DNA from: Hysterium pulicare CBS 123377
Taxonomy: Eukaryota; Ascomycota; Dothideomycetes; Hysteriales; Hysteriaceae
Assembly: GCA_000467715.1 (NCBI GenBank)
Contig: AJFK01000371.1
Coordinates: forward strand, 1-33,343
Direction: 5' to 3'
DNA: 33,343 nt
The stretch's first letter is position 1. Each line of letters starts with the position of its first letter. Below the pieces are notes generated by a model. It saw nothing but the letters and a program-made list of their open reading frames with translations. It was not told where the DNA came from and did no database searches. Of this stretch, positions 903 through 33,343 are shown in pieces. The position numbers and the translations under genes are program-made.

Positions 903-1409
903 CTAACTTCTCGAGTTCGTTCTCCTTGCCGCATCTTCAATCCCCCTCTCCCTTCTCCTCCGTCTCAAATACTCTCGATAAGGAGTTTGCCTGAGCCGAG
1001 TCCCTCGCCCACCCTCCTCCTCATCATCTTCCTCAAGCTTCTCTTCTTCAGACTCGGGCTCTGAGGTTTCCGAATCCGAGTCTGAGTCATCGCCATCATC
1101 TTGCTCACTATCCATAGAAGCAATCTCAGCTCTCTGAGCATCCGTGAGCGGTTCAGGTTCGAATAGCTGGAGCCGACAGTATGGGCATGTGTTGCGGTTT
1201 GGCATGATTCCTTGGAACCAGCTCAAGATACAGGCTCTGTGGAACTCGTGCCAGCAAGGTAGAATGGCTACAATATCCTCCCCTCTTACCAAGTCTTCTT
1301 GGCAGATGGGGCAGGTATTAGATGGGCTTTGGGGTGGTGGGCAGGGTACTAGGCCATATTGAATGTAGGAGGAGAGAGGGTCAAAGCAAGAGTCAGGAGG
1401 AGTTGACAT
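903..1409 (-). CDS. RING-H2 finger protein with acidic tail (array member 1)
   Basis: This is a 168-residue intronless protein, probably a RING-type E3 ubiquitin ligase. The RING-H2 domain spans residues 33-78, with ligands C33, C36, C52, H54, H57, C60, C75 and C78. Fifteen residues separate the second and third ligands, and a WF pair follows the sixth ligand. A diverged form of the family N-terminal motif is present (residues 10-20, ending in GL), and the post-RING signature LFEPEPLT follows directly. Residues about 95-130 are strongly acidic (Asp/Glu/Ser runs) and the C-terminus is arginine-rich. There is no signal peptide or membrane segment. It is the shortest member of the array and the leftmost. 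The RING assignment is certain; ligase activity and target are inferred. Confidence 0.85.
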   Translation of the reverse strand: MSTPPDSCFDPLSSYIQYGLVPCPPPQSPSNTCPICQEDLVRGEDIVAILPCWHEFHRACILSWFQGIMPNRNTCPYCRLQLFEPEPLTDAQRAEIASMDSEQDDGDDSDSDSETSEPESEEEKLEEDDEEEGGRGTRLRQTPYREYLRRRRRERGIEDAARRTNSRS

Positions 1410-2279
1410 TATGATACTCGAAAAGCTTTGCGGTGGTCTAGAAAATCGGAGCGGAGGATAGGCCAGAGAAAGGGAGAAATACTACGCGTCTGTCTATTGT
1501 TTACTTATGGAGATGAATCTGGAAGCATTTGCTGAGACGTTATTCACTTTACATAGACCTGACATTCACCTAAGTGATTTGAACCAAAGACGGCGCCGAA
1601 TTATTTGATTTCGTCGGTAAACGATGAAAATATATCTAGAATGATGAAAAAAAACAGTTGGGGGGTAAACAGGTAGCTAGTTAAGGCTTAATAGCTAGAC
1701 AAATAGCTAGACAAATAGCTAGATAAATAGCTGGATGAATAGCTAGATAGATGTATAGCTAGCTAGATAAATACCTAACTAGATAAAAACCTAACTAGAT
1801 AAATACCTAACTAGATAAAAACCTAACTAGATAAATACCTAACTAGATAAATACTTAACTAGATAAATACCTAACTAGATAAATACCTAACTAGATAATT
1901 AGCTAGCTAAATAAACAGCTAAGATAAATAGATAAATAAAAAGCTAAATAAGTAAATAAATTAGTAAAGCAATTAACAATATGCGTTGGAGATTGTAAGG
2001 ACACAATTAGATAAGCTACGATATTAATGAAGTCTAGCGAAGTGGCAATTCACATAGTTTACACGAGCAGAGATATGGGATCCATATATACATATACATC
2101 CATAGGGGGTTGTAAAGTCTTTACACCTATGGACACTCGCCCATTGATCGTTACTCTGCTGATATAGTTCCTAACAGGACCTCTCTTCACTCACTACGTA
2201 GTAAAAGCTCTAGGGAAACTCGTAGCCCAGATCTCGGTCGTGGCATATTTCAGGCCTGTATCTAGCAGCATATCCGGAC
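1410..2279. other. Intergenic region with an AT-rich minisatellite
   Basis: This 870-bp interval lies between two minus-strand RING genes. It holds the presumed promoter of the downstream RING gene (start at 1409) and a long tract built on tagctaga/ctaactaga variants. I see no coding potential. Confidence 0.7.
1677..1930. repeat. AT-rich minisatellite, 12-bp then 16-bp units
   Basis: The left part is made of 12-bp units resembling tagctagacaaa and its variants. It passes into eight 16-bp units of acctaactagataaat at 1773-1900. The first four 16-bp units alternate between ...aaaa and ...aaat endings, which suggests a 32-bp duplication step. Differences between copies are single bases. The right edge degrades into tagctaaataa variants. 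This is a replication-slippage type array. Confidence 0.9.
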
Positions 2280-2990
2280 TCAACCGAATCGAAACGTCGC
2301 CGACCCATTGATGTTGATCGAGGTCCCCTGTTCGGCTGTAATAGTCACCGTCATCCTACCTCTGGTCTCAGGCTCTTCTGCTGACTGATCTGCCGTCGCC
2401 GGTTGATTCCCTGTCTCCACATCTTCATCGGTGCCAGTGCGGTGGTGCCGACGCTCCGTATTTGGGTTCTCTTGACTTGTCGTAGACGCTTCTTCCCGCC
2501 GCTCCAGGTCAACACCAGGATTGCGCGAACCAGCAATCAGCTCCTCGGTGATCCTATCCACCCGCGTCAACCGATCAATCGTCTGCTGATGTGCCCGAAG
2601 ATATGCATCTATCGATTCACCATGACTGACGGGCTGGTTATGCACCGGATGCGTCCTCGATAGATCCACTAACTGCGCCAGACTTCTCCAGTTCCTCTCT
2701 AGCACAAACAACTCACGTCGGCATACTGGACAGGTATTCCGATTCGGCGAGGTTCCTCTAAACCATGCCATGATGCAGCGTCGATGGTAGAAGTGGTGGC
2801 ATTCGCGCGTGAATACGACCTCGTTCTCAGTCACCGAGACTCCGAAGTTGACGCAGGCTGCACAGTGCTCATGGCAAATGGAGCAAACCGTGCCTATCGG
2901 ATGAGCTATGCTGCGAAGTAGGCCATTGGCGAGGTAATCGGTTTGTGTAGGGAGAGCACCGCGGGGTGGAAGACGGTGTGAGTTAGACAT
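2280..2990 (-). CDS. RING-H2 finger protein (array member 2)
   Basis: This is a 236-residue intronless RING-type protein. The N-terminal family motif is clear: LPTQTDYLANGL at residues 13-24. RING ligands are C36, C39, C64, H66, H69, C72, C87 and C90, with a 24-residue loop between ligands two and three that itself contains C43 and C46. The linker has the family form WFRGTSPNRNTC. The post-RING PLT signature is lost; the region continues as LFVLERNW. The remainder is hydrophilic and probably disordered, with a short threonine/isoleucine-rich C-terminal segment. The start is supported by an upstream TATA-like element about 125 bp away. E3 ligase function is inferred from the domain; the substrate is unknown. 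Confidence 0.87.
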   Translation of the reverse strand: MSNSHRLPPRGALPTQTDYLANGLLRSIAHPIGTVCSICHEHCAACVNFGVSVTENEVVFTRECHHFYHRRCIMAWFRGTSPNRNTCPVCRRELFVLERNWRSLAQLVDLSRTHPVHNQPVSHGESIDAYLRAHQQTIDRLTRVDRITEELIAGSRNPGVDLERREEASTTSQENPNTERRHHRTGTDEDVETGNQPATADQSAEEPETRGRMTVTITAEQGTSININGSATFRFG

Positions 2991-3466
2991 CCCTGTCGGC
3001 GGAGAGGAGAATTTGTTTCGTTGTTGAGTAGGGGTGGTTCTTGCTGTGGTCTTGGTAGTCGAGAGTGCAATAGCGGTGGATTGATTCTTATCCGGAGAAT
3101 ATGAAGCTGACCATTATATATATCCTTAAGTGAATTGTACGATGCAAACTTGGTGAATCAAATTGTTTCGATGCCTCCACGTACACCGATTTTAGGGTGG
3201 CTGTTTATTTAAGTTCGAAAGTGAATGCCCAGGGTCATGGTCACGCGCTATCGGATCCCCTCAACTACATCTCTTCTTCGGCTTGTCGCGGGTTGCTTGC
3301 TGGAAGAATTAGGTGCTCAGAGTATGGTACACGTCACCAATGTATCAAATATCGATGTTGTATCCTTTCATAGGGTTCATGTGACTATGTCGAGTTAATC
3401 GTGTGCCCAGAATACCCCTCTAATAGAATACCTAAGCAAAATAAAAAATGGCTCAAAAAGGAGGCC
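2991..3466. other. Intergenic region upstream of RING member 2
   Basis: The interval holds the promoter side of the RING gene starting at 2990 and the 3' flank of the minus-strand F-box-like gene that ends at 3467. Apart from a TATA-like element, I see no gene or repeat. Confidence 0.6.
3114..3123 (-). promoter_or_regulatory. TATA-like element of RING member 2
   Basis: Read on the minus strand, an ATATATATAA run lies about 125 bp before the ATG at 2990. Two other array genes (17767 and 20854) have similar elements at a similar distance. Assignment rests on sequence and position only. Confidence 0.4.
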
Positions 3467-5286
3467 TCATGTACCAAAGAAGGCCATATCTTCCTCCATC
3501 TCCTTTTCCAGAGTTTCCAGTGCGCCGATTTTATGCCCGAAGTTAAAAGGGCCATGTTGACGATAGCGTTCGTAGAGTATCTGACTATGGTCGTAGGAAT
3601 ATGAGCTCATGTACTGACAATTTACAGATGATCCGAGAGAGTTGTGAGGCAGAAAGAACAATAGGCGTCACTGAAGAGCTATTACTCACACATGCTGAAA
3701 CCATGTTTTCTCATTCACTTCTCCAGCTCCCGCTTCATCGGCTGACACATGCTTCAAGACATGACCTCCAACAATTTTTACGAATCTCACTGTATCAACG
3801 GCCCCAAGACTGCTTTTCAAGGCTTTGACAATGACACTTGTATCCCCCTTTTGGATCCCATTCACGACAATGGTCAAAGAAGCTATCCGTAGCTCTTTTA
3901 ACATCTCTCTCAACAAGCACCTACAATAGCACTGCGCTGGACTTAGGCTGATGCCTAAAATCTCAAATACTTGATCAGGCAGGAACCAGCATATGTGGCC
4001 AAGTAATCTCCTGTACTTGAAGCGGAACGAGAGGTGGCGGAGATTCAACCGGTTAGTAGGGCCGATTTGCCAAAGGAAATGCGTGACGTCGTGGTTAAGG
4101 AAGTGAAACGTTGAGGTGCGGTAGATCCAAGAGATTAGACTAGCGTTCAGGGCGTGAGAGATTCGGAAGATGGAAATAAGCGGGGAGGGTTGTGTGCCTC
4201 GAGATGATTTTGATGGGGCCGGATTTGGAAAGGAACCTGAGTGCTCAGTCAATATAGTAAGTGGGCCAGAAATATTACGATGGAGAGGAAAAAATCGTTG
4301 CTCGAGCTGTTTGGGGGGGTTAGCTCACCATTAAGACAGTGTGAACAACCGCAAGCAGGCTCATCATGACCATATTCATATGCAAGAGGACAATACATCC
4401 CAGGCCTTGCCACAGCGTAAGCTAGAATTTGTTGTTGAATCTCCACGGGTAATTGCGTGAAATGTTTGAAAACATGCGGCCTTATACGAACAGTAGCACT
4501 ATCCGGCTCCTTCATCATTTTTTTGGGTACATAGAAATGGCCCTTCCCCATCTCTTTCTGCCGTCGTACAACCATCGAACACTGCTTTCTGAACCAATCT
4601 TCCTCAGATTCCCACCCAGAACCTGCGCGCAAGAGCATATGGTATCCAGACTTCTTCTCAAGCTCGGGACCGAAGAGGCGGATCACGACTTTTGTGGATT
4701 CTATGCTCGGGTTCTCTGGCCAAACTTCACACAATACTGGTTGGCCAAGATCATAAATGCCTTTTGAATTGGATACGGGTTGTATTGGTCTAATGAACCC
4801 GCGATACAAGCAGTAGGATAAGAGTGAACGTGACCATTTTTCCAGATGTTTGATGAACCGCCGTCTTTGGGAGGATGTTTTTGATAGACTTTTCTTGGGC
4901 GAGCCGTTCGATGATTGACTTTGCGGCGGGCGCATTGGTTGGAAGCGTACATGGGGGCCAGGTTGGGTTAGTGTCTGACTACGAACACTCGGAATTTTGG
5001 CTGCTAACATGATTGTAGGTGAATGGCTTTCAAGAAGATGTACCTGGAAGAAAATCAGAGCAAGAGCGGCCAGGCTTGACTTACATATAAACTCGCTGAT
5101 GGCTTTCCGTTTAGCGTGCAAGACTCTAGGCGGACGCCGCTGCTGCCTGGACTCTGCAGGAGCGAATATATTAAGATGAAGTGCGCTAAGCTGAATCGGG
5201 TCTTGATGGGGTCTTGAGTGAGCAGAGATAGAGTCCAAGTAGTCTGAAGGCATGTGGCTTAGCGGCGAGCTAATGAATAAGTACAT
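3467..5286 (-). CDS. F-box/2EXR-like protein, four exons
   Basis: I model exons at 5085-5286, 4329-5003, 3692-4236 and 3467-3613, giving 522 residues. Introns of 81, 92 and 78 nt have GT..AG ends, and all junction phases close into one frame. The second intron (4237-4328) starts GTGAGC and splits a Gly codon. The third starts GTGTGA and ends TGTCAG. The first has an in-frame length, so it is less certain. After a basic N-terminal half the protein has a motif of the type LPVEIQQQILAYA, resembling the F-box or 2EXR helix of fungal proteins. A Cys/His-rich turn (ACGCSHC) follows, and the C-terminal half is leucine-rich and globular. F-box-like proteins usually act as substrate receptors in SCF ubiquitin ligases, but here that is only a possibility. 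The start could instead be the ATG at 5253. Confidence 0.65.
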
Positions 5287-5374: not shown

Positions 5375-5382
5375 GTTCGCTC

Positions 5383-8912: not shown

Positions 8913-9809
8913 TCAATCCGACAATACCCTGACCATAGGCATAGTATCGATGATATGGCCTACCAGGAGCCTCAAGAACATCTGAACACTCCACTTGTAT
9001 TCCTTTACCTTCTTCGGCGTATTTATCTTGGGTAATCCCCACAACCACCAATCAAGAATCTCCATCTGCTCGACAGTCTTCTCAATCAACTCTTTCTCAA
9101 CATCATGCCGATGAAATAACCTGTCATGCATATCCAGTAATGCGATAGCAATCGCTCCGTTCAACACCTGACAGACGCGGAGGGTGTATTGAGGGGCTTT
9201 GAAGTGCTTTCTGTAGAAGTATCCGAGGAGAAGAGGGAGATCCTTCAAAGTTTCGTCAGCGTCGACCTTGATGATTTTGTAGCGCTCGGGAATGATGCGA
9301 GTACGACACATGGGACATTTATCTCGATTTGTCGGTTCGTGCTCCATTTCGGCAAAGGATTCAACGAGAAAGCTGTTGGTGGGACCAGTCGTAGCTCGAT
9401 GATGCTCTTCGAGTTGGGCAAATGGGATTGGTGGCGCTGGTGAACGGTACACGTATTCAATACCATCGATGTAGCTGATGAAGACCTGTTTAGAGTCTTG
9501 CCAGTTGAACTCTCGACGCTGTTCTAATTCATGAAGAGGTATCGTCCATACGCCCTCGCAGATCTTTGGAACGGTGAGATGAGGCTCATATATCGCTTCG
9601 GGAAGCAGCCACTGGACAATGCACCCTTGGCAGAAGATATGGCCGCAAGTGATCCCGACAGGGACATGGATCCAGTCTTTGTTGACGAGCTCTTTACCGC
9701 TGAAGTCGTTCGTGCAGATTGCGCAGCTGAGGTTGTTTGCATCAAAATTACTCCGCTTGAGGTCAACGAGAGTGAGCATTGAATTGACGTAGGCGCGTCG
9801 AGGTTGCAT
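8913..9809 (-). CDS. Atypical C3HC4 RING protein with a 101-residue insertion
   Basis: This is a 298-residue intronless protein. Ligands C29, C32, C55, H57, C60 and C63 form the first part of a C3HC4 RING (CGHIFCQGC). The last pair, C165 and C168 (CPMC), lies 101 residues further on instead of the usual 4-48. The insertion (64-164) is rich in aromatic and acidic residues and contains one extra Cys. The C-terminal 120 residues are helical with hydrophobic stretches (about 215-232 and 265-292) and a WWLWG motif. A trace of the array N-terminal motif is present (YVNSMLTL before the first Cys). The gene borders the array and may be its most divergent member or a separate RING family. It is divergent from the RING gene at 10309. 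Confidence 0.75.
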   Translation of the reverse strand: MQPRRAYVNSMLTLVDLKRSNFDANNLSCAICTNDFSGKELVNKDWIHVPVGITCGHIFCQGCIVQWLLPEAIYEPHLTVPKICEGVWTIPLHELEQRREFNWQDSKQVFISYIDGIEYVYRSPAPPIPFAQLEEHHRATTGPTNSFLVESFAEMEHEPTNRDKCPMCRTRIIPERYKIIKVDADETLKDLPLLLGYFYRKHFKAPQYTLRVCQVLNGAIAIALLDMHDRLFHRHDVEKELIEKTVEQMEILDWWLWGLPKINTPKKVKEYKWSVQMFLRLLVGHIIDTMPMVRVLSD

Positions 9810-10308
9810 CTTGACGGGTTGTCTTGGTTAGTTTTGCTACGGTTGTGGTGTTGTTTGGTCTTTTGCATGGTAAAGAGAAGGTCGGATCTAACGAGGTCTT
9901 ATAGGCACACGAGGAGTGAACCGTTCTGGCTCCGATCAAGATCCAAGACAAGGCTTCCATTTCCGTCACGTGGGGGCTCTTACTTTCAAGGCTATACAAG
10001 GTGAGTCAACTACATTTGGCCGTTCACCTGCATTCACCTCGATCGCCATAATACCGAACTTGCACGGACATCTCCGTCTCGGTCGACACTGTGCGGGCTC
10101 CGCGGGAGCTGCTTCCTTGATATTGACTTTCAGGGGAAATCATATGCACAATGCTTTATTAACGAGGCTACCAAACACCGTCGCTTGTTGGAGGATTATT
10201 GTGCAACGCGCCTTCAAACTATATCACAGCGGACGGTCTCTTCTCGATTCCCTAGACCTCTCTCTACACCCGAGTCACAATATTACAAGAAACTTCCAAT
10301 ATTTCACC
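9810..10308. other. Divergent intergenic region between two RING genes
   Basis: This 499-bp interval serves minus-strand and plus-strand RING genes. A CACGTG E-box core lies at 9967-9972. The frame upstream of 10309 stays open to 9916, but that extension has no family resemblance, so it is probably leader rather than coding. Confidence 0.5.
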
Positions 10309-10998
10309 ATGTCATCCCTAAGGCTCCTTGACCACTACGAGTTTCTGCGCGACAGCTTGATCCTCTGTGAGGATCATAAAGCTCTTTCGGAGGGGGCTGA
10401 ATGTTCAATTTGCGAAGAGCATTACTTGCCGAATGACAGTGCAGAGAATGCGACAGGACCTGTGAGGAGAATTGTTCAGGTCTCCACTTGTAAAGATCAT
10501 TTTCATCGAGATTGCTTCCTGTACTGGTCTCAGACTAGCGCTCGCAAAAACCAAGAATGTCCGACCTGTGACCGCCAGCTATTCGTATACCAGCAGCCGC
10601 TCACCTTCTTACAAATAAAGCAATTGTATGCCGGAGGCAGTACGGGGCATCTAACTAACGAAGAACTCTGTGATGAGTATGTTGACATCAAAGAAAGGTT
10701 CACAGACCTAACGGCGGTTCGGCAGGCTGTGCAAGAAATCGAGCCTGGTACTAAAGAACGCGACGAGCTGAACGATTTTTGCAATCAATGGTCCACTGCA
10801 CTTTACGAAAGAGCGCAACGGCTCCAGCGAAACGTCCAAGAGGTCAGTCAGCCTCAAGAAAATCTCTCTGATGCCGAGACCGAACACGCAAATCTAACTG
10901 CAGATGCCGATGATGATATCGCTCCGGCAGGGGTGTCCTCTATAGAAAGCATATCTCCGATTCGTACTAACCCTCAATTACGACACCTACTAGGATAG
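10309..10998 (+). CDS. RING finger protein with His-to-Asp ligand change (array member)
   Basis: I chose the ATG at 10309 because it places the family N-terminal motif (LLDHYEFLRDSL, residues 6-17) near the start, as in the other members. This gives 229 residues. RING ligands are C32, C35, C61, C69, C84 and C87. In the central cluster CKDHFHRDC the usual fourth ligand His is Asp63, with His64 next to it and His66 as the fifth ligand. Asp can bind zinc, or His64 may substitute. The post-RING region keeps LFVYQQPLT. Residues 120-190 are charged and helical; the C-terminus is acidic. The gene may be a functional variant or an early stage of decay, but the frame is intact. Confidence 0.82.
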   Translation: MSSLRLLDHYEFLRDSLILCEDHKALSEGAECSICEEHYLPNDSAENATGPVRRIVQVSTCKDHFHRDCFLYWSQTSARKNQECPTCDRQLFVYQQPLTFLQIKQLYAGGSTGHLTNEELCDEYVDIKERFTDLTAVRQAVQEIEPGTKERDELNDFCNQWSTALYERAQRLQRNVQEVSQPQENLSDAETEHANLTADADDDIAPAGVSSIESISPIRTNPQLRHLLG

Positions 10999-11468: not shown

Positions 11469-12515
11469 ATGACTACCAATCTTCCATCCCAGCAAGAGTT
11501 CCTTCAGAACGGACTTCAGCCTTGTAATCTAGGACGCGTTCCTAGCGGGGAACTATGCTCCGTCTGCCGCAACCTCATCGCCGATCCAACGGACAGCGAC
11601 CATTCAGGAGAACCCGATGTTGTAGTCAAAATTATGACTTGCCAGCATTTCTTCCACCAAGGATGTATTACTCGGTGGATGACCGGTACGCATCCTCGTC
11701 GCTCTGCTTGCCCTAACTGCAGGTCTGAGTTGTTTAAAGCAAACCCATTAACATCTGAACAGCTTCAGGAACCTCTACATCGGGGCGGGCAGTTGCCTAG
11801 CGTAGAAGAGATTCAGCATGGATATCAACAAGCTCTCGATCACTTCAATGAAGTGACGCGAGATCTGGCACGGTATGTTGAACTGAATCGAGAAGCCAAT
11901 GAGTCCATTAGACGGGAGCGGCTTGAAACAGGACAAGCAGACGATTGGAGCCACATGGAGGCAAATCGGGGTTTTTTAGACCCTCTCCAGCAAATTTCGG
12001 ATTTGACTTTGGGAAATCTCCGATTGGCTGCGGAAACAGTGCTGCGTTGGACAGATCGTATAACCCGTCTCTCCGAGTACGACAACTTATTCACACAGCT
12101 GCCGACAGACCAGCTTCCCCGCGCACGCCAAGAGGGTTCTGTTGCTGGTGGACGTGGCGTTCACTATTCTGGTCTTTCATCGCGTGATCTAGCTCGTGTG
12201 TCGTCGGATCATCAAGCTTTATCAAATGAGCATCAGGGTGATCGAGTGTCACAGCTACATGTGGACCGTGTTACGGGTTGGATTGATGAAATGGGGCTGT
12301 CCTCCCGCGAAGTCGAAACACGTGATGATGAAGGATCAGAAGCTAGTGCCGAAGAAATAGCAACTCATCGTGTAGAAAATGGGGGTGTTCAGGAGGAAAC
12401 TTCTGCAATCAATGCAGAGACTACCGCAGTTAACGCAGAAGCAGCCGCTATTCGCGAAGAAACCGCTCGAATTGAGGAAGAAACAACTCGAATTCGTGCC
12501 GAAGGAGATGTGTGA
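11469..12515 (+). CDS. RING-H2 protein with five C-terminal heptads (array member)
   Basis: 348 residues, single exon. The N-terminal motif is a consensus-like LPSQQEFLQNGL (5-16). RING-H2 ligands are C30, C33, C58, H60, H63, C66, C81 and C84, with linker WMTGTHPRRSAC and post-RING LFKANPLTSEQ. Residues 110-200 are charged helical sequence. The C-terminus (310-344) has five uninterrupted heptads of the type ET[ST]A[IV]NA, a probable short coiled coil that could oligomerise. In DNA the heptads are diverged copies of a 21-bp unit, so this tail arose by tandem duplication. The product is probably a cytosolic or nuclear RING E3 ligase; the target is unknown. Confidence 0.88.
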   Translation: MTTNLPSQQEFLQNGLQPCNLGRVPSGELCSVCRNLIADPTDSDHSGEPDVVVKIMTCQHFFHQGCITRWMTGTHPRRSACPNCRSELFKANPLTSEQLQEPLHRGGQLPSVEEIQHGYQQALDHFNEVTRDLARYVELNREANESIRRERLETGQADDWSHMEANRGFLDPLQQISDLTLGNLRLAAETVLRWTDRITRLSEYDNLFTQLPTDQLPRARQEGSVAGGRGVHYSGLSSRDLARVSSDHQALSNEHQGDRVSQLHVDRVTGWIDEMGLSSREVETRDDEGSEASAEEIATHRVENGGVQEETSAINAETTAVNAEAAAIREETARIEEETTRIRAEGDV

Positions 12516-13184: not shown

Positions 13185-14243
13185 ATGGCGACTGCGCTCC
13201 CTCCACAAGAGGACTTCCTTCAAACCGGCCTGGAAGTATGCAGTGTCGAAAACCTCCCTCCTGAGGCCACAGCCTGTACCATATGCGCCTCCGAATTTGA
13301 TCAGAACTCGGAGACCGTTGAGCACGAAGCAGTAGAGAAAATCGCGGCTTGCAAGCATTACTTCCACTCTAAATGTATTCGCGAGTGGTTCAACGGAACC
13401 CATCCTAGGCGCTTCTCCTGTCCGAATTGTCGAACTGAGTTGTTCATTCCTAATCCGCTCACTGCTGAGCAGATTGAGAGCCTCTTTGAGATCGAATTCG
13501 ATGGTGAACGACGTCCCATGCTCAGGGTCATATACGATGAGACCTTTGATAGGCTAGTAGCAGCTGACCAAGAGCTGAAAGACAGAATTAAAGATTACAT
13601 TGCAGCGGAGAGCTTTGTTCGCCAAGCCCGGAAAGATAAGGAGTCGAAAGTCGCAGAAGCAAAGCCACGGTCTAAGACAGCAGATGCTAGCATACAGAAA
13701 GCCGAACATCGCCTTTTTAAAGGGGAACAATGGGCCCTGTTCAAGAAAGAAGCTGTTGAAGAAGCTGTAACGGCTGTATCAGTGTTTGCGAATGGTCTAC
13801 TCATTTTGGCCCGACTCTTGGGAATGCCACTGACTCCCATTGATACGACTGTAGAAGAGAACGATCACAACAGCCATCCAAGCATTGTAGACCAATTATT
13901 TTCCTACTTGCCCATTATTGGACTTCCCAGGCTTTACCGCTGGCGACATAATGCCGCTCTCCCTCTACCGTTGTTGATGATGCAAGGGAACATGGCAGTA
14001 GTCGCTGACTGGAGAATCCCCCCGTCTCGCATACCATGCAGCAACCCTTCTGATATTCGTCAACTGGCACTTTTAGACTATACCACTGGCGAAGCCGCAC
14101 AAGAACCTGTGTTGAACCCTGGAGTGGATCTTATATTGCCACTGCCTACTTTCAGGCTTCTACAAGGACTGACTCAACTTCCTGGGTCGTTGGTGGCAGC
14201 TGATGCCGAACGTGAAGCGTTAGAAGTCTCGCGAGATTCATAG
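13185..14243 (+). CDS. RING-H2 finger protein (array member)
   Basis: 352 residues, single exon. The N-terminal motif is LPPQEDFLQTGL (5-16). RING ligands are C31, C34, C56, H58, H61, C64, C79 and C82, with linker WFNGTHPRRFSC and post-RING LFIPNPLTAEQIES. These features are closest to the gene at 11469. Residues 110-185 are lysine- and glutamate-rich helix, followed by a hydrophobic helix ending in LLGMPLTP. That helix resembles, weakly, the GMPQSRYLP segment of the genes at 18748, 20854 and 22263. The C-terminal 100 residues are more hydrophobic and may fold. Ligase role inferred. Confidence 0.88.
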   Translation: MATALPPQEDFLQTGLEVCSVENLPPEATACTICASEFDQNSETVEHEAVEKIAACKHYFHSKCIREWFNGTHPRRFSCPNCRTELFIPNPLTAEQIESLFEIEFDGERRPMLRVIYDETFDRLVAADQELKDRIKDYIAAESFVRQARKDKESKVAEAKPRSKTADASIQKAEHRLFKGEQWALFKKEAVEEAVTAVSVFANGLLILARLLGMPLTPIDTTVEENDHNSHPSIVDQLFSYLPIIGLPRLYRWRHNAALPLPLLMMQGNMAVVADWRIPPSRIPCSNPSDIRQLALLDYTTGEAAQEPVLNPGVDLILPLPTFRLLQGLTQLPGSLVAADAEREALEVSRDS

Positions 14244-15293: not shown

Positions 15294-16829
15294 ATGTCTG
15301 AATCGAAAACTAAACTTCCAATGTGGAACATCCCAGTCCGTCTCCTCTCACAGGACAAATTCCTAAAGTCGGGACTGCTGCCAGTTAGCTCTTGTCCAGA
15401 GAGTATTCTCTGCAGCATCTGCCGTTATGAATGTTCGCCGAAAACTCCTACAAATTCATCCGACGTTCCCACTACCGAAGATAACTCCGATGAAGTCGTT
15501 CAAATTCGCGATTGTGCACACTTCTTCCACAAAGAATGCATACTTGGGTGGTTCAACTCTTCAAATTCAATGCGGGATACCTGTCCTAATTGCAGACGTC
15601 AACTATTTTTGGCGAAGCCTCTCACCTCGGAGCAGATAGCCAGAAACGTGTCGGAGAGTTATTGGATGGACTTACCGCAAGGTCTAGATATGCCTTATTC
15701 TCCTCCTTTAGGAGGTTATGTGGGAAACTTCCACGGACAGTGGACAGCCGACGATATGCTAGCGCCTTATATCGATGCTGAGCTACGATCTGCACGACTC
15801 AACGAAATGCAACGACGCATGGAGCCTACCGAACCCAACGAGGAGACATCAAACCGACTACACGGAATACATCAATCCCTGCAATCCCATCATATAAGGA
15901 GAGCCTACGAGGAACTTGCGCGAGGAGGAATGCCACCCCCACCTGAATTCTATCCCCCTGTTCGACATGCGTTTCGATCCGAACTGCATCCCCTTGTTCG
16001 ACATGAAGTACCCCACAACGCAGATTCAAGATATACCGATACACGTCCGGCCTGGCTTCGCAACCAACAGACAACTTCAAGACCTCGCTCACATGCTGTG
16101 TCGGATTATTCTAATCCTAGTCTAATGACGAGACCTACAATTGGCTCCACGGATGATATGATCAGCTCAAACGCCCGTCTAAGAGCGCTCGGTTTTGATC
16201 GCGACTCTAGTCGACATAATCGGCTAACACATACCTCGGTGAATCGCATCATGGGAAACCAGAGTTTGCCTTTCTCGCATAACATAAATCGGCCCTCTGC
16301 AGACAGGCATACGGGCTCAATCAATCACGTACCCGATGGCTTTGAAGACAGGAACTTTTCTCGCCGGACTGATGATCGTCCCATTCGGTGGGGCTTCACG
16401 GCGGTACCGTCGGCTCCTAGATATGTAAGAACTTCAAATGGGTACAATCCAGATACAAGTGCGGCAACTTCAACTCCAGAGTCATTGGCAACGCACAACC
16501 CCTGGCGGAGCCACCACGGTTTGGGCCCACAAGGAACAACTAGCTATCAACATGCACCAACTGGGACGATTGCACCTCAAGAGCCTCGACCAGCAGTTGG
16601 ACCAACCCAACAGCCACGTTCAATGCCTCAAAATAATCGTTTCGGTCCTTATACGGGTTCAAGAGGCTGGCTGCCACCGCTTACTGAGTTCACACCAGCT
16701 GTAACTGCAGACTCGCCAGTATCAACTGCAGGCCATGGGAGAACACCTAGTTGGTTGCGATCAGTACGCATGAGTGGGCTTTTTAGGCACTCAGAGAGGG
16801 AGGAGAATGGCTCCGGGCGTAGTAACTAG
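15294..16829 (+). CDS. RING-H2 protein with long disordered C-terminus (array member)
   Basis: 511 residues, the longest single-exon array member. The N-terminal motif LLSQDKFLKSGL lies at 17-28, after a 16-residue extension. RING ligands are C40, C43, C74, H76, H79, C82, C97 and C100, with a 30-residue Ser/Thr/Asp-rich loop. Linker WFNSSNSMRDTC and post-RING LFLAKPLTSEQIAR fit the family. From about residue 120 the protein is low-complexity, rich in Pro, Arg, Ser, Asn and His. It includes an imperfect direct duplication (PPVRHAF / HPLVRHEV) that is also visible in DNA near 15951 and 15987. The tail looks disordered and could be a binding or RNA-contacting region. Its codon use looks similar to its neighbours. 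Confidence 0.86.
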   Translation: MSESKTKLPMWNIPVRLLSQDKFLKSGLLPVSSCPESILCSICRYECSPKTPTNSSDVPTTEDNSDEVVQIRDCAHFFHKECILGWFNSSNSMRDTCPNCRRQLFLAKPLTSEQIARNVSESYWMDLPQGLDMPYSPPLGGYVGNFHGQWTADDMLAPYIDAELRSARLNEMQRRMEPTEPNEETSNRLHGIHQSLQSHHIRRAYEELARGGMPPPPEFYPPVRHAFRSELHPLVRHEVPHNADSRYTDTRPAWLRNQQTTSRPRSHAVSDYSNPSLMTRPTIGSTDDMISSNARLRALGFDRDSSRHNRLTHTSVNRIMGNQSLPFSHNINRPSADRHTGSINHVPDGFEDRNFSRRTDDRPIRWGFTAVPSAPRYVRTSNGYNPDTSAATSTPESLATHNPWRSHHGLGPQGTTSYQHAPTGTIAPQEPRPAVGPTQQPRSMPQNNRFGPYTGSRGWLPPLTEFTPAVTADSPVSTAGHGRTPSWLRSVRMSGLFRHSEREENGSGRSN

Positions 16830-17766: not shown

Positions 17767-18405
17767 ATGGCCAGTCTCCCGTCCCAAGACGAATTCCAAC
17801 AGTGTGGCCTCCGAGCCGCCGACCTTTCCCACCCTTGCCCAACCAACACCACCTGCACAATTTGCAGGGCCGAATGTGGTACGGAGCTCACAATCGGCAC
17901 ACCAGCTGACATTGTGGTGTCAAACTCTGAAGAGAGGGAGGAAGAGCTGGAAAATGCGGTTCAGATCAGGGCATGCGGACATTGGTTCCACCAAGGTTGT
18001 ATCAATGGTTGGTTTAACTCGACGAACCAGCAGCGCGATACGTGTCCGAATTGTAGACATATTCTATTTATTCCTAAACCTCTCATACTCAACCATACTG
18101 TTGATTCTTTGGGTGACCCAGCGCGGTATGGTCAAGTGTCGGCAGCCCTGCAAGGGTTATTGCAGGCGATGGAACGGTATGAAGCTACCATCCATGGCCG
18201 CCTCGAGGCCGAGCCCATCTACTGGGGAGAGGCGGACACCCCTGGTCGTACGGTTCAGGGTCTGATGGCGATGTACAACCACTATACTCCTTATATTAAT
18301 GAGCCTGAAGAGCCTGGGAGGAACCTGCGTAATTCACACGGAGACACCATACTGGAGGACTATGTTGACCTTAACGAAGAAGCATCGGATACTGAGAGGG
18401 GTTGA
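17767..18405 (+). CDS. RING-H2 protein with long acidic RING loop (array member)
   Basis: The ATG at 17767 sits in a good context (taccATGG) and gives 212 residues beginning MASLPSQDEFQQCGL, the clearest copy of the N-terminal motif. RING ligands are C30, C33, C70, H72, H75, C78, C93 and C96. The 36-residue loop between ligands two and three is the longest among complete members and contains an acidic run (residues 55-62). Linker WFNSTNQQRDTC is nearly the same as in the gene at 15294, suggesting a recent shared origin of the two RINGs. Post-RING is LFIPKPLI. The short C-terminus is acidic. Confidence 0.88.
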   Translation: MASLPSQDEFQQCGLRAADLSHPCPTNTTCTICRAECGTELTIGTPADIVVSNSEEREEELENAVQIRACGHWFHQGCINGWFNSTNQQRDTCPNCRHILFIPKPLILNHTVDSLGDPARYGQVSAALQGLLQAMERYEATIHGRLEAEPIYWGEADTPGRTVQGLMAMYNHYTPYINEPEEPGRNLRNSHGDTILEDYVDLNEEASDTERG

Positions 18406-18747
18406 GCAGTAGGAGTGCCTACTCATGAGGTCTCTAGAGAAAGGCTGGACAGCCGGAGGAGAACGCAATTCAGATATCTTAAGCAAGTTGGTCTATGACG
18501 TGGCGGACGGCTACCATCGCCTTTCTTGAGGCCTTCAGAAAATGCTCTTACTGGAGTTCCTAACGAACACATTAGGGAAACCGATGATCCATATACTAGT
18601 CCATCTATATGAGTACACAATGTGATACGTGGAGTTTGCCACTGTTTTCGAAGGACTTTCCTTCAAATGAAAGCAAACAATGTCTTACCATACCAAATAT
18701 TTAACAGCATCAGCCTTATCCCCACGGACACCCCCAATCCCTTCAGT
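18406..18747. other. Short intergenic region
   Basis: 342 bp between two plus-strand RING genes. The upper end depends on the start chosen for the next gene, whose frame is open from 18622. No other feature is seen. Confidence 0.5.
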
Positions 18748-19659
18748 ATGAGCTTGTCATCTTCTCTAACACAACCCATCAATATCTCGACCGAAATGCC
18801 TTCATTAGGTTTTACAGGAATAGTGGCTCGCGTGCTTCGACGACTCCCTAGCCGGGACTTACTTTCCCCTCATGTCCCTCTTCAAGACGAATTCTTCAAG
18901 ACATGGTTAGTTCCATGCACCCCAGGTAAAGCACAGCAAAAGGATAGCTGGTGTGCCATCTGCGGCAAGGTCCAACCTCCTTCTGGTAGCAATGAGACGG
19001 GGCTGGAGCGTATTATCTCCTGCAATCATATCGTGCATCATAGCTGCATGGTTTTCTGGGCCTCCCGCGCCCATCAATGGGTGGATTCTTGTCCCCGCTG
19101 TTCTCGACGCTTGTTCATCCATGCTCCGAGCGAGTCCTACAGGCTGGCCTCAGAAGCTGGGATAGCCGTTGAAACCCATCCTCTCCCACAAGGCCGCATT
19201 CAGTATGGTAAATACCTGGTAGATACTGAAGAAGAGCAGTACAAGGCCGAGCACTGCACCTTAGAAACTCTAGTCCAAGACGTAGTGACTCGACAAGTCA
19301 ATCTCGCGCGAATGATGCATGCCATCCATCAAGATCGCTGGGTGGAGATCGTTCATGAGGTCATCGAGCTGTTCAAAGCACAGGGTATGCCTCAGTCGCG
19401 ATACCTCCCTGATGATTACCAGGTCTTGGATGTTGCGGTGACGTGGCTGGTAAGGACGGAGGTTGAGAAATGTCCTGAAATGCGAAATACGACAGCACTA
19501 TCTCTGCTGATAGGGCATCAGCGAGAAGTTGATTGGGTTGGAAAGAAGCCCATTGAGGAAGTTGAGGAGCACCCGTCTTTTTTCACTCGCTTGTTACGTA
19601 GGGAAAAGGAAAAGAATACCGAGAAGCTTGCAGAGGAGGGGCGTTCAACGGAGGTGTAG
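18748..19659 (+). CDS. RING-H2 protein with GMPQSRYLP domain (array member)
   Basis: From the ATG at 18748 the product has 303 residues; ATGs at 18667 and 18796 are also in frame. The N-terminal motif is VPLQDEFFKTWL (43-54), with W in place of the usual G. RING ligands are C69, C72, C92, H94, H97, C100, C115 and C118. The linker (WASRAHQWVDSC) lacks the GTH form and the post-RING segment is LFIHAPSES. Residues about 158-263 match a second conserved domain of the genes at 20854 and 22263: an acidic start (VDTEEEQ), helices, then GMPQSRYLP (213-221) and a hydrophobic helix. The tail is basic and charged. It carries a 42-residue N-terminal extension relative to most members. Confidence 0.82.
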   Translation: MSLSSSLTQPINISTEMPSLGFTGIVARVLRRLPSRDLLSPHVPLQDEFFKTWLVPCTPGKAQQKDSWCAICGKVQPPSGSNETGLERIISCNHIVHHSCMVFWASRAHQWVDSCPRCSRRLFIHAPSESYRLASEAGIAVETHPLPQGRIQYGKYLVDTEEEQYKAEHCTLETLVQDVVTRQVNLARMMHAIHQDRWVEIVHEVIELFKAQGMPQSRYLPDDYQVLDVAVTWLVRTEVEKCPEMRNTTALSLLIGHQREVDWVGKKPIEEVEEHPSFFTRLLRREKEKNTEKLAEEGRSTEV

Positions 19660-20853: not shown

Positions 20854-21804
20854 ATGTCTCCAAACGTTTCTTCGCTTCTATCCCAAGACGACTTCCTTTC
20901 GAACCTCATCCCACTTACATCGCAACCCCAGTCAGAACCAGTCGAATGCTCAATCTGCCAAGAGACTTGCACCATTGAAAAGGGTGCCGACGAGGTAGTG
21001 CAGCTAAGTTGCAAACATCTCTACCACTACACGTGCATTCTCGCATGGTTCACAGGCTACGACCAACAACGAGGCACCTGCCCGAATTGTCGCAAAGCAC
21101 TTTTCATCCCAAACAAGCTGACCGCAGCTCAGATCGCGAGGATGACGCCAGCTGCGCCGCCACAATCGGCTAATTTGACTGGAGCAGATTACTTCGAGTC
21201 CGAGATGCTCTCGCTTCAGAATCTCGTCCGCGCTGGTGTGGTTCGAGAGTTCGAACGTGCAGAGATAGCCGCTCGAGCGCCACCGAACTTGGTCCGCCAG
21301 GGGCCTCCTGATTGGCTTGCTCTAATGCGTGAGTGCATGGATAGTTTTCATGAGATGGGTTTGCCCCGATCTAGGTCACTCCCAAATAACGCCGCACTAC
21401 TGGAGTACGTATTTGCGAGTTGCATGCGGCGAAATGTCGAAGCAGCATATCCCGAATCGATTGATTCCCCTGAACATCGTGCGCTGGTGGAGTATGTGTT
21501 CAATGCTGAGACCCGATTTCTCGAGCAAGAAGGAACGATGAGAAATTGGGATGGCTCTAGGCGAGATGACGATGCTTCAGAGGGCGTGATGAATGATTGG
21601 GAGAATGTTCTCGTTTTTGTCTATGAGTGGGACCACGATCGACGAGTCCTGCGAGATCGCCGAGGAAATTATGATCACGTGCATACGGAGGGACAGTATA
21701 ATCTCACTTTCCGTCCGTCTATTAGGCGGGCTTGGCTCAGGAGGTTGAGGGAAGTTGTATTTCGGAGACATCCCGATCAGTCGACTGGTCATATTATTGA
21801 TTAG
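20854..21804 (+). CDS. RING-H2 protein with GMPQSRYLP-type domain (array member)
   Basis: 316 residues, single exon, beginning MSPNVSSLLSQDDFLSNL. RING ligands are C32, C35, C53, H55, H58, C61, C76 and C79, with linker WFTGYDQQRGTC and post-RING LFIPNKLTAAQIAR. The C-terminal domain (about 113-262) contains GLPRSRSLP (169-177), a hydrophobic helix with RR-x-VEAAYPE, an LVEYVF helix and an NDWE motif. The same order is seen in the protein at 22263. The domain matches nothing I recognise. The last 50 residues are arginine-rich. The combination of RING and a conserved partner domain suggests substrate or partner binding by the C-terminal part. Confidence 0.88.
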   Translation: MSPNVSSLLSQDDFLSNLIPLTSQPQSEPVECSICQETCTIEKGADEVVQLSCKHLYHYTCILAWFTGYDQQRGTCPNCRKALFIPNKLTAAQIARMTPAAPPQSANLTGADYFESEMLSLQNLVRAGVVREFERAEIAARAPPNLVRQGPPDWLALMRECMDSFHEMGLPRSRSLPNNAALLEYVFASCMRRNVEAAYPESIDSPEHRALVEYVFNAETRFLEQEGTMRNWDGSRRDDDASEGVMNDWENVLVFVYEWDHDRRVLRDRRGNYDHVHTEGQYNLTFRPSIRRAWLRRLREVVFRRHPDQSTGHIID

Positions 21805-22262: not shown

Positions 22263-23387
22263 TCAACGTCCACGATTCCTGGCAAGGCGTCTACGTTGGA
22301 AGATTGTGCGTAATTGAGCAAGTAAGGGAATGTGTGGACGTGACCCTCGAGGCTGCGCTGGTACTAGGCGGCGTTCAAAGTTCGTGACGTATTGCCCTAC
22401 CTCATACCCACGCACTGGCTGGGCGTTGCGATGGCTAGGGCTTACTGAAGCGTTGTTCATGCCAAAGGGTTGGTTGTCACGATCATCAAGTTGTTCAGGA
22501 CTACCATTATCGGGCTGAGGTGATGTATCCGGTGACTGCCAATTAGGATCTTGCCGCGTCGCTATGGCATCTTCCCAATAAGACGCTACTCTAATAGAAA
22601 CATCCCAATCATTGGGCGTACTAGAGTAATCATCATGGTAAGTACCGTCCCGGTTTATGAAAGAAGGCTCCACTACTGTCCAAAAATGCCGAATGGCCTC
22701 ATTATGGTACGCTACCAGTTCATGGTATACTGGAGTGTTGATCCACTCGCGATACTCGAATACCATTAACCACCGCATATAAGTTGTGAACATATAGTTG
22801 AGCATACCCCAACTGTTAGGTAGATACCGAGACTGCGGCATACCCACTCCTACAAATGCTGCCATTGCTGACCAAATCAAGGTATCCCAATGACAATATG
22901 AGTTCACGCCGCGATCTGTGAGCTGTCGATTTTGAAACGCTAGAGCTTGACGGCCCAGGACGCGAATCATTTCAATCTCACTATGGATAGCATCCTCTTC
23001 AGTGTCGACGCGAAAGCCTCCATAATCTAGTATCGGGTGAGGAAGAGGGTTGTGGGGGCGATCCATCCAGTTCTGAGCCTCTGTTATTTGGTCTTGGGTC
23101 AGTGGGTTCGCTACGAAAAGTATCTGACGACAGTTCGGGCAGCGATCTCGGTTCTGATGGGTGCCGGTGAACCACGACATGATGCAACCGCGATGGAAGA
23201 GATGGCCGCAGGTTTGAATGCCAGCAACGCCCTCATCAGGCAAACATGGCTCCTGACAGATTGTGCAGTCTGCTTCTTGCTGTGACAGCGTGACCGAGGA
23301 GCTGCCGGTACATTCCATTATGCCTGTGCTAATGAATGTGTCTTGATTAGGGAGCGACTGCGTTTGTGTGGAGACTTCGGAGTCCAT
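22263..23387 (-). CDS. RING-H2 protein with GMPQSRYLP domain (array member)
   Basis: 374 residues, single exon. The N-terminal motif is LPNQDTFISTGI (12-23). RING ligands are C41, C44, C60, H62, H65, C68, C83 and C86, with linker WFTGTHQNRDRC and post-RING LFVANPLTQDQITEA. The C-terminal domain (about 127-280) starts RVDTEED, carries GMPQSRYLP (182-190), a tryptophan- and tyrosine-rich helical part, and an NDWD motif (259-262). It is clearly homologous to the domain in the genes at 18748 and 20854. The tail is disordered and basic. It is the only member of this subgroup on the minus strand, so an inversion is implied. Confidence 0.88.
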   Translation of the reverse strand: MDSEVSTQTQSLPNQDTFISTGIMECTGSSSVTLSQQEADCTICQEPCLPDEGVAGIQTCGHLFHRGCIMSWFTGTHQNRDRCPNCRQILFVANPLTQDQITEAQNWMDRPHNPLPHPILDYGGFRVDTEEDAIHSEIEMIRVLGRQALAFQNRQLTDRGVNSYCHWDTLIWSAMAAFVGVGMPQSRYLPNSWGMLNYMFTTYMRWLMVFEYREWINTPVYHELVAYHNEAIRHFWTVVEPSFINRDGTYHDDYSSTPNDWDVSIRVASYWEDAIATRQDPNWQSPDTSPQPDNGSPEQLDDRDNQPFGMNNASVSPSHRNAQPVRGYEVGQYVTNFERRLVPAQPRGSRPHIPLLAQLRTIFQRRRLARNRGR

Positions 23388-29324: not shown

Positions 29325-29348
29325 CTGTGTAGTACCTTGAAGATACGT

Positions 29349-29405: not shown

Positions 29406-29509
29406 GCACTCATGCAGGTGGTACATGGAAGAATCTCATACTTATACCTCCTCTTCTTTCCTTTCTCACGATACCCCGTCCAATACTCCACTCGCACTAC
29501 CGCAACCCA

Positions 29510-30139: not shown

Positions 30140-30515
30140 GAACCAATCGGGATAGTCACATGGTGTGATTCTGTGGAGCGTCGATCATTTGAGCTTTGCT
30201 TTTTTCGATAGACTGGGATGGATAGGCAAGGGAAGGACGATATGGTGACTCTCAAATAAAAGACAATCATGCCTAGATTTTTGAATCCTTTGTTCTCGCT
30301 TTGTGTGTGTCCCATTAGGTCCCAGGCCAATTTCGTGAGGGGACATGGGTAAGTACGGGCAAGAAAAGCGAGCAGAATGAGAACAGATTTAATTCCCATT
30401 CACTCTGAATAGTCTACCAAAATTTTATTTCTTTTTTTACTTTTTCTTCATTCCCATCACCTCTACCGATATTATCCCGAAAGGGCCTTCACAGGTACAA
30501 ATTCCACACCATACA
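30140..30515. other. Intergenic region
   Basis: 376 bp between the membrane protein gene and the first decayed RING copy. It contains a T-rich tract near 30425-30445, and no gene is seen. Confidence 0.5.
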
Positions 30516-30933
30516 ATGCCAAAGTTACGCCTGCCTACCTATTCCTAGTTTCACCGCACGGGCATTCGAACATGTTGCCAATCCCGACTCCGACTTCACC
30601 TGCCCTACCTGCCACGAAGCCTCAGTTCCCGAGGATGTTGTTAACGAACCCACAAGTCAAGTAAATGAACACAAAGATTCCGAAGCTCAACAATGCGCCT
30701 CCGACCTTATCGAGACACCATGCTCCCACACATTTCACCATCTATGCCTTAAGTCCTGCTTTACGGGCGCAAATCCGGCTCATAACACTTGTCCATCGTG
30801 CCGCCGTGTCTTCTTCACCTCCAACCACTCTATCACCCGCCATTCAGTTCGCCTGAAGTTTGGACGCATGCTAGCAGAATACCAAGCTAGGATGTCGGAG
30901 TATCAAGAGATCTATCGACTTGCCATGATATGA
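30516..30933 (+). pseudogene. Decayed RING-H2 paralogue with stop and frameshift
   Basis: The ATG at 30516 begins MPKLRLPTYS, matching the N-terminal motif LPTYAQF of the intact gene at 33014. The next codon is TAG where a CAG or CAA glutamine is expected, a C-to-T type change. The motif then continues FHRTGI. A frameshift before about 30585 brings in the RING frame, which is fully preserved: CPTC, a 36-residue loop, CSHTFHHLC, a linker ending AHNTC, PSC and the post-RING RRVFFTS. That frame runs to a TGA at 30931-30933. With two disabling lesions but all eight ligands intact, the loss looks recent. A spliced structure avoiding both lesions was not found. Confidence 0.75.
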
Positions 30934-31299: not shown

Positions 31300-31610
31300 T
31301 ATTCCAATCCTCCTAACCGCCCAGCTCCACCACTCCCAAACAGATTCAAATTTCCTCATAGAGGCCTCCATACCATCACTAACCCCTCTGCCGAACTCAC
31401 CTGTCCCATCTGCAATGAAGATGACCCTCCATCCGAGGAAGTCATCCAACAAGGTGGTAGCATCGATGAGCAATTCTCCGGCTTGACTTCCGATAATTCC
31501 AACAGCACCATAGGCCCCAACGACACCACTACCGTTGCCACACCCTGCACGCACGCCTTCCACCGCTCTTGTCAAGAGACTTGGTTCAATAGTACAAGTC
31601 GGGCTTACAA

Positions 31611-31624
31611 CACGTGTCCAATGT
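31611..31624. repeat. 14-bp direct repeat, left flank of insertion
   Basis: cacgtgtccaatgt is identical to 31967-31980. The pair flanks the segment interrupting the RING coding sequence and looks like a target-site duplication. Confidence 0.8.
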
Positions 31625-31966
31625 TGGCAAGGGGTGGGTGTTTGCCATGTTGTATTGGTGTTGAAGGTGGTAGTATCGATGAAGAGGAGTGTTGGAGAGT
31701 GTTGCAGGAAGATCGATCGAAGAGCAGCGCATTTTTACTTCCACCCAGTGCGCGATGAGTCAATGTTGACTCAAAGAGATCATGTTCAACTCATTGACTC
31801 TTTTTGTCGTCAACATAGCGTACCAGAACCAAAGAAACCAAACCAACGAGAACTCAACGCAAAAAATCAAAGCAACACCGTTACATCATTCAATAAAACC
31901 ATCCATAAATGAGAGCTTTAACTATAATCACCGCTTACGCGTGGTTCAGCTTAATCAAACTCTTTT
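31625..31966. mobile_element. Insertion (~340 bp) carrying dispersed repeat copy B
   Basis: This segment lies between two identical 14-bp repeats inside a RING coding region. It contains the second copy of the dispersed repeat (about 31782-31944), which is also present at 29170-29324. No coding frame of its own and no terminal inverted repeats were found, so it would be non-autonomous. Its left part contains ggtggtagtatcgatga, resembling ggtggtagcatcgatga at about 31454 in the host gene. That leaves open a recombination origin instead of transposition. Confidence 0.55.
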
Positions 31967-31980
31967 CACGTGTCCAATGT
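31967..31980. repeat. 14-bp direct repeat, right flank of insertion
   Basis: Identical to 31611-31624. It begins immediately before the last zinc-ligand codons of the interrupted RING. Confidence 0.8.
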
Positions 31981-32451
31981 GCCGGCGCGTTCTCTTTACC
32001 TCACGCCGCACCATCAATGCGGCGATCCTATTCCCCAGTATAGCTGATTTCCACCTAATTCCAAGACACGAGATTCGAAGACAACGACTCGTGGAGTGTC
32101 GATGGAACTCGAACGCGAGGTCCTAGCTGCACTTTTCGCAATCGAAGCGCGTGAACATGAGTCTCACGTACGGACCACTGTCAATGAGACTGAGGATTGC
32201 GTCGAGGAGTGACACTGGATGGGGTTTGATGAGTGACAATGGAGAGGGTTAGCAATGATTCGCCGAATCTTCTGCGATAGAGGAACTTCCGTCAATAGCT
32301 TCACTCGGGGCCAAATTTGAAAATCACGTTTCCTCTCTCTTTACACCTGCATCAACTTCTACCCACAACGCCTCAACATATCCCAACAACCACGTCCACA
32401 TCCCCACCCATCAAAATATCAAATCCACCTCATCCCCCAGGTGGACCCCTA

Positions 32452-32565
32452 ATGCAGTACAATCTCACTCTCGAACGCCTTCAAACCACAATCAACCCAC
32501 CAGCCGATTTTACCTGCCCCATATGCAACGAACACGATCCTCCACCGCAAGACATGCTAAGCTGA
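32452..32565 (+). pseudogene. Truncated RING paralogue (N-terminal fragment)
   Basis: 37 codons from an ATG. They contain a diverged N-terminal motif and the first ligand pair in the context INPPADFTCPICNE, followed by DPPPQDML and a stop. The match to ITNPSAELTCPICNEDDPPSEEV of the interrupted copy at 31300 shows they are duplicates. The remaining six ligands are absent downstream. It is probably a deletion remnant. Confidence 0.65.
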
Positions 32566-33013
32566 GCGTTGACCATATGTCGAGGATTCCTCTGCTGTTA
32601 CTGGTACAATTCTAGTTAGACCCTGATGGCCTAGAGGAAGAAAAATCCCGCTGCAATCATTCTCCAATAGCTGAAACCCTGAATCAAGAGTTCTATAGCT
32701 TCCTACCGCCTCAAGTCAGCTCATATACCTATCCATACGACTTGTAGAAACAGAAACGAGGTGTTCGTTGGAAATGTAAGTAAGCCAACTAGTGAATCCC
32801 CCAAACCCCTGAAGTCACTGCTGTCAAGCAATGTACGTGAATGAAAACCAACCTCGCTTCAAGACGCCATTCATGTGAGGTCATTCACCATAGGGCATGT
32901 CCCTCCTTCTCCGCCGCAGGAACTCTTTATCACAACCCACTTTAAAAACCTCCTCACCCTACGTCTGGCAACATCAAAACCGCCAGAACAATCCAGCGAA
33001 CCAAGCGCCAAGA
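32566..33013. other. Intergenic region upstream of the last RING gene
   Basis: 448 bp with no RING sequence on either strand. The last 150 bp are C/A-rich, as expected for a fungal promoter and leader. Confidence 0.5.
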
Positions 33014-33343
33014 ATGCCTTCAACCAACCCACTCCCATCCACTCATCTCCCAACCTACGCCCAATTCCTCCAAACAGGACTCCAGCGCCTCTTGCCTCCC
33101 GAGCCCAGCTTCACCTGCCCGATCTGCCACTCCGACTCACCTTCCACCTCCGAACCCACCGCTTCCCCACACCCCGACACGTCCCAACCCGAAGAAAGCG
33201 AAGAAATCGTCTCCACGCCCTGCGCCCACAACTTCCACCTCACCTGCCTCACATCCTGGTTCACCAGCCCCAGAATAAACCACAACACCTGTCCCACCTG
33301 CCGACGCGTACTCTTCGCCTCCGATCATCGCGGTCGCGATCGC
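33014..33343 (+). CDS. RING-H2 finger protein, cut by the window edge
   Basis: The first 110 residues are visible. An intact N-terminal motif LPTYAQFLQTGL (12-23) is followed by RING ligands C35, C38, C70, H72, H75, C78, C93 and C96. A 31-residue Ser/Pro/Glu-rich loop separates ligands two and three. Linker WFTSPRINHNTC and post-RING CRRVLFASDH place it with the decayed copies at 30516 and 31300 and apart from the PLT-type members further left. It is the only complete-looking member of this second subgroup; the C-terminus is outside the window. Confidence 0.85.
   Translation, partial: MPSTNPLPSTHLPTYAQFLQTGLQRLLPPEPSFTCPICHSDSPSTSEPTASPHPDTSQPEESEEIVSTPCAHNFHLTCLTSWFTSPRINHNTCPTCRRVLFASDHRGRDR

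Follow-up and report, generated by a model that had tools for sequence, protein, structure and literature searches.

The 33,343 bases of contig AJFK01000371.1 of Hysterium pulicare CBS 123377 (contig C290 of our analysis, taken entire and referred to here as the window) carry a dense array of RING-finger genes that is real and exceeds chance, as judged from the alignment E values between its copies and from genome-wide clustering in the 37.2-Mb, 596-contig assembly. From its sequence, the array is an old, local group of uninterrupted genes that probably encode single-chain ubiquitin ligases (E3 enzymes) of the RING-H2 type, and it represents one of several clusters of a family dispersed over the genome. 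A dense RING array with shared flanking segments was the claim of the original prediction, and it is borne out both by tblastn alignments and by the clustering in the genome. The RING units of the window are the following.

903..1409, minus strand: R01, complete RING-H2 family frame of 168 amino acids (PF13639, E 1e-10)
2280..2990, minus strand: R02, complete RING-H2 family frame of 236 amino acids (PF13639 under cut-off, PF12861 above cut-off)
8913..9809, minus strand: RING-HC gene within the array, not a family member (Cys at ligand 5, motif scan)
10144..10998, plus strand: R04, RING-H2-like family frame of 284 amino acids (PF13639 under cut-off)
11469..12515, plus strand: R05, complete RING-H2 family frame of 348 amino acids (Pfam and tblastn)
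13185..14243, plus strand: R06, complete RING-H2 family frame of 352 amino acids (Pfam and tblastn)
15294..16829, plus strand: R07, complete RING-H2 family frame of 511 amino acids (Pfam and tblastn)
17767..18405, plus strand: R08, complete RING-H2 family frame of 212 amino acids (Pfam and tblastn)
18667..19659, plus strand: R09, diverged RING-H2 family frame of 330 amino acids (tblastn; PF13639 at E 0.011)
20854..21804, plus strand: R10, complete RING-H2 family frame of 316 amino acids (Pfam and tblastn)
22263..23387, minus strand: R11, complete RING-H2 family frame of 374 amino acids (tblastn)
30409..30930, plus strand: R12, broken, with no in-frame ATG ahead of the RING and the conserved Trp lost
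31300..31755, plus strand: R13, broken, with no in-frame ATG and the RING interrupted past ligand 7
31968..32015, plus strand: fragment matching the RING end (E 0.004)
32419..32559, plus strand: fragment corresponding to the N-terminal portion of R13 (E 6e-8)
32894..33343, plus strand: R14, open RING-H2 copy whose frame is cut by the contig end

Pairwise tblastn joined thirteen RING units (R01, R02 and R04 to R14) into one RING-H2 family over the N-terminus and the RING, with E values between copies down to about 1e-26. Twelve RING frames are open, 11 of them complete and one (R14) running off the contig end, which agrees with the twelve open RING genes counted originally; however, one of these is the cut copy and another, at 8913-9809, is not a family member. 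The latter aligned with the other copies weakly and over the RING part only, and it showed no N-terminal motif in the matrix scan described below (p 0.555). Because this gene is a RING-HC gene lacking the motif, the family in the window comprises ten complete uninterrupted frames of 168 to 511 amino acids and one end-cut copy, together with two broken copies and two fragments, the presence of broken copies having been foreseen correctly. In R04, a start at the Met of position 10309 would agree with the rest of the family; in R09, the motif starts near 18874 and the start Met is not fixed. Since R14 is truncated by the contig end, the array may extend further.

The RING cores were compared in an alignment of 12 window rows, with R13 left out. 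Seven zinc-ligand columns were invariant and ligand 4 was His in 11 of the 12 rows (the exception being R04), and the family shows the RING-H2 ligand pattern C-x2-C ... C-x-H-x2-H-x2-C ... C-x2-C. At ligand 5, the window's 11 matches to PF13639 carried His in nine cases and Cys in one (8913-9809), with R04 unparsed. In active E3 ligases, an Ile or Val before the second Cys, a Trp, the Pro of the CPxC motif and an Arg after the last Cys contribute to binding of the ubiquitin-conjugating enzyme (E2). In the window alignment, the Ile or Val was present in 11 of 12 rows, the Trp in 11 and the Pro in all 12, while the Arg was found in 10 rows and replaced by Asp in R04 and by Ser in R09. The predicted zinc ligands and E2-contact residues of the family thus correspond to those of active E3s. 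RING families of Pfam matched nine of ten window proteins at E 0.01, the nine including the non-member RING-HC protein and the miss being R09. Among the best 60 of 100 structure matches, the closest solved structures were RING E3 ligases (RNF4 with 4.8e-10, RNF126 and Hrd1), and these matches began at profile position 14 at the earliest. R04 carries the segment CKDHFHRDC at ligands 3 to 6.

The segments flanking the RING were examined in the 14 RING frames of the window, including the non-member and the broken ones. The N-terminal motif proposed originally, LPSQ-x2-FL-x3-GL, occurred in none of the 14 frames as written, the actual spacing being FL-x2-GL, but its core in the form L[PL]xQxx[FY] was present in seven. 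The proposed linker W[FM]xGTHxxR turned out to be a part of the RING itself, situated between ligands 6 and 7, and was found exactly in three frames and in the relaxed form W[FM]x[GS]x3-4R in eight. The post-RING segment LFxxxPLTxxQ was found in five frames. The motifs proposed originally hold as tendencies and not to the letter.

A matrix built from eleven window N-termini was then applied, with shuffled controls, to up to 90 residues ahead of each RING match. At p ≤ 0.01, the N-terminal motif was detected in 16 of the 93 RING matches outside the window, where about one was expected. Sorted by the residue at ligand 5, the carriers comprised 5 of 32 His types, 10 of 31 Gly types, none of 21 Cys types (RING-HC) and one of nine others. 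Housekeeping RINGs as sharers of the motif were rejected on its absence from these 21 RING-HC matches outside the window, which also answers the objection, raised originally, that the motif might be common in unrelated RING proteins. R02, R12 and R13 of the window and a locus on contig C454 were left unscored as carriers; R02 and C454 came from protein searches, and the scanned stretch stopped short of the motif. The members outside the window number 17 when one protein-search locus is added to the 16 scan hits. A Met stood 1-22 residues ahead of the motif in 16 of the 17, and in all 17 the frame closed at a stop within the examined piece. The motif is thus N-terminal in a family whose genes are uninterrupted.

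A six-frame search of the genome with the zf-RING_2 profile gave 104 matches at E ≤ 0.001, of which 95 exceeded the curated cut-off; these counts are lower bounds, the best candidates alone having been scored, they refer to RING stretches and not to checked gene models, and, zf-RING_2 being one among several RING profiles, shares calculated from them are not shares of all RINGs. Another match lay within 10 kb for 47 of the 104; with uniform placement and contig breaks ignored, this held for 5.7 on average and for no more than 20 in any of 1000 draws. Groups beyond the window were located on C31, with seven matches in about 10 kb, and on C426, with four in about 4 kb, as well as on C440, C232, C478, C274, C276 and C180. 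All 13 family RINGs of the window had their best BLAST relative within the window (30-47% identity), which argues for local duplication. Local best pairs were also observed on C426 (4/4), C478 (2/2) and C180 (2/2), while both C274 copies paired with C31 copies. The idea of a RING family that expanded locally and is distinguished by an N-terminal signature is therefore upheld, its members being clustered paralogues. A second kind of RING array is seen at C426:3407-7693, where four consecutive RING matches have no N-terminal motif and the RING lies near the C-terminus.

The array is old, with the RING conserved and the C-termini diverged. Mean identity among the ten complete copies was 39% in the RING, 32% in the post-RING segment, 26% in the N-terminus and 16%, which is noise level, in the C-terminus. 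The proportion of synonymous differences (pS) was 0.74-0.83, at the saturation limit, and at fourfold sites (shared V/P/T/A/G codons) the third base agreed in 91 of 312 cases. The age of the copies follows from this saturation together with the mere 30-47% identity of the best pairs, so that the rapid evolution suggested originally is not supported. The ratio of nonsynonymous to synonymous differences (pN/pS) in the RING was 0.53, with pS saturated; for the same reason, the ratio of substitution rates (dN/dS) is not computable and positive selection is not assessable from these copies.

On these data, we propose the following mode of action. Each protein starts with a short motif, approximately L[PL]xQxx[FY]LxxGL, shortly after the Met; this motif would pack on the RING, and the RING would recruit the charged E2 and act as a ligase. 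Behind the RING follow an LFxxxPLT-like segment and a copy-specific C-terminal part, which is about 70 to 400 residues long and probably substrate-binding. The family may thus be a home-grown enzyme set marking different proteins for destruction, and a recognition role is plausible given the diverged C-termini. No strongly hydrophobic N-terminal stretch was detected in the 14 frames (maximum 1.02 over 19 residues on a simple hydropathy scale), and the proteins are therefore probably cytosolic or nuclear; a single hydrophobic stretch, with a Kyte-Doolittle value of 1.91 at residue 194, is present in R06. R09, R10 and R11 have a common C-terminal block around GxPxSRxLP, for which Pfam and PDB gave nothing below E 0.13. 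A genome search with R11 returned the block in R09 and R10 only (E 0.001); the search with R10 added two frames, one on C209 that has one stop and aligned up to residue 165 (E 7.8e-6), and a doubtful one on C556 with three stops (E 0.009).

Several results weigh against this reading of the array. R04 and R09, in which the post-cysteine Arg is missing, may be inactive as ligases. At the same time, 77 of the 93 RING matches outside the window miss the motif threshold of p 0.01, and the family is therefore a part of the RINGs of this genome and not all of them. A tree built on 63 RING segments, in which 2 of the 60 inner branches were starred, did not recover the array as one clade; the window label required 10 changes on this tree, against a mean of 12.8 in shuffles, with as few in 16 of 500. 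Such a poorly resolved tree, having too few columns, gives by itself no proof of a single array clade. Finally, the family C-termini have no Pfam or PDB match, and no curated Pfam match over cut-off lies outside the RING, N- or C-terminal, in the family proteins searched; substrate binding is thus assigned to the C-terminal part by elimination.

The plant ATL family is the closest analogue of the array. ATLs are likewise single-chain RING-H2 proteins with a motif ahead of the RING, encoded by tandem genes with species-specific expansion, and include regulators of stress responses and development, according to the available part of PMC3161093. Their arrays are mostly of two to three genes, with one of nine mentioned in that part of the source (PMC3161093), against 13 units in the window. 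Unlike ATLs, the window proteins lack an N-terminal transmembrane helix by the hydropathy measure given above, and they have no conserved GLD before the RING, the pattern G.{0,2}L[DE] occurring in 6 of 14 frames and ahead of the RING in R06 only. The CTL family (YEELL RING-H2 ligases) resembles the present one in being set by a motif near the RING-H2, as described in the accessible text of PMC5764321, but Y[ED]ELL was found in none of the 14 window frames and none of 111 RING frames.

The example of the tandem ATLs that regulate stress responses and development (PMC3161093, same part) also speaks for a narrower version of the ligase reading, in which the copies would be ordinary regulators that became subfunctionalised for development or stress, without acting as a repertoire. 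The age of the copies and the conservation of the RING fit such a role, whereas the expansion is local, with every one of the 13 best relatives in the array, and the 104 zf-RING_2 matches are a high number next to the putative E3s of yeast, of which the consulted portion of PMC8631298, counting differently, gives 60-100 with every type included. We regard this version as possible, if rather doubtful. A literature search turned up, among its results and as far as their accessible text goes, no account of tandem RING genes forming a family in a filamentous fungus.

Ubiquitin-ligase parts in many copies with divergent recognition ends are known from the MATH families, and mushrooms are, beside plants and nematodes, among the usual examples of exploded ubiquitin-ligase families. 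The F-box families of nematodes and plants are built in the same manner, as far as the available parts of PMC8665587 and PMC3719486 describe them; F-box proteins, however, are adaptors of cullin ligases, whereas the present proteins have the RING in their own chain. After their example, the array could be a recognition repertoire under diversifying selection exerted by viruses, transposons, other strains or a host. The conserved front half combined with C-terminal identity at noise level (0.16), the many copies, the occurrence of broken beside intact ones and the several clusters in the genome would all be expected of such a repertoire. On the other hand, the array contains no recent duplicates (30-47% identity in the best pairs), silent sites are saturated, and old neutral divergence of the C-termini would look identical. 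Such a repertoire under diversifying selection is an unlikely, although reasonable, refinement.

That the array is a field of pseudogenes, with most copies non-functional, is very improbable. It would account for the stretch at 30.4-32.6 kb, where two broken copies lie together with two fragments, as well as for three of the 17 motif members outside the window having short, broken-looking frames of 59, 83 and 115 amino acids. The ten complete frames of 168-511 amino acids retain their ligands, however; R01, R04, R08 and R09 had positive coding scores although none of them belonged to the training set of the codon model; and the RING ratio of 0.53, with pS saturated, also opposes decay. A mobile or viral source of the genes deserves hardly any credence: the frames are uninterrupted, clustered and dispersed, but no relative was found for an R07 segment in viral contigs or for R11 in prokaryote contigs, in searches reaching close relatives only, no transposase-type domain was found among the 30 proteins or frames searched, and positions 24000-29000 are unrepeated in the genome. 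A viral or bacterial origin was rejected on the absence of close relatives in those contigs.

Outside the RING units, the gene at 5383-6894 (minus strand), adjoining the array, encodes a CENP-U-like kinetochore protein (PF20994, 2.8e-21) in a single open frame, and a Cmc1-like protein, matched under cut-off, is encoded in a single open frame at 7624-8631. The contrast drawn originally between intronless RING genes and neighbours with introns is not supported by these two genes. The end of a frame at 4249-5286 (minus strand) weakly matches the start of 2EXR (E 0.003, under cut-off) and perhaps continues across an intron. Between array genes, about 6 kb (23500-29800) gave no codon signal when scored by a model whose training set was nine window genes. 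Hidden genes at 24-29 kb were rejected on this ground, together with the finding that ten frames had no Pfam match over cut-off and that positions 24000-29000 have no repeat elsewhere in the genome, in a search that could miss genes of other codon use or with many introns. A 90-base direct repeat (86%) lies at about 28904-28993 and 29000-29089.

The genome-wide matches include a class of RINGs that the window does not have. With the pattern CxHxxXxxC, ligand 5 across the 104 matches was Gly in 32, His in 38, Cys in 22 and Asp in one, with 11 unparsed; Gly was found in none of the 11 window matches against 32 of 93 outside, the number of Gly types being 31 (outside the window) or 32 according to the parsing rule. 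They are located on C31:103673-113863, C274, C180, C232 and other contigs. The plant RING-G type has the same CxHxxGxxC arrangement, but it accounts for one of 731 RINGs in Brassica rapa and one of 477 in Arabidopsis in the available text of PMC5240574, whereas in this genome the class is large and most of its RINGs have a His upstream. This His stands just ahead of the strand leading to ligand 3 in 20 of 27 RINGs with Gly at ligand 5 and in 3 of 54 with His or Cys there, counted after 26 of 109 RINGs were dropped as unparsed (27 Gly, 36 His, 18 Cys and two others being kept). Within the N-motif family (31 members: 10 Gly, 19 His, one Asp and one unparsed), the corresponding numbers were 9 of 10 Gly types against none of 19 His types, and under a looser rule, by which a His may stand anywhere in the 16 residues ahead of ligand 3, they were 9 of 10 against 5 of 19 (p 0.0017). 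These p-values overstate the case because the pattern was picked after inspection and the copies are kin; moreover, R06 has a His at a like place (VEHEAV) that the strict pattern passed over. A natural guess is that the Gly types are a possible RING class with a displaced zinc ligand.

Taken further, and tentatively, the uninterrupted single-chain E3 family could serve recognition as a large repertoire, its N-terminal motif and RING being constant and its C-terminus free; in some of its RINGs, the zinc chemistry itself would have changed, with Gly at the fifth ligand and a His at the beginning of the first strand as the replacement. The Gly-type set would allow a test of whether a zinc ligand can shift its position in a RING without loss of activity, and a large, signature-bearing RING family in an apparent filamentous fungus would provide a tractable system for studying what such repertoires recognise.

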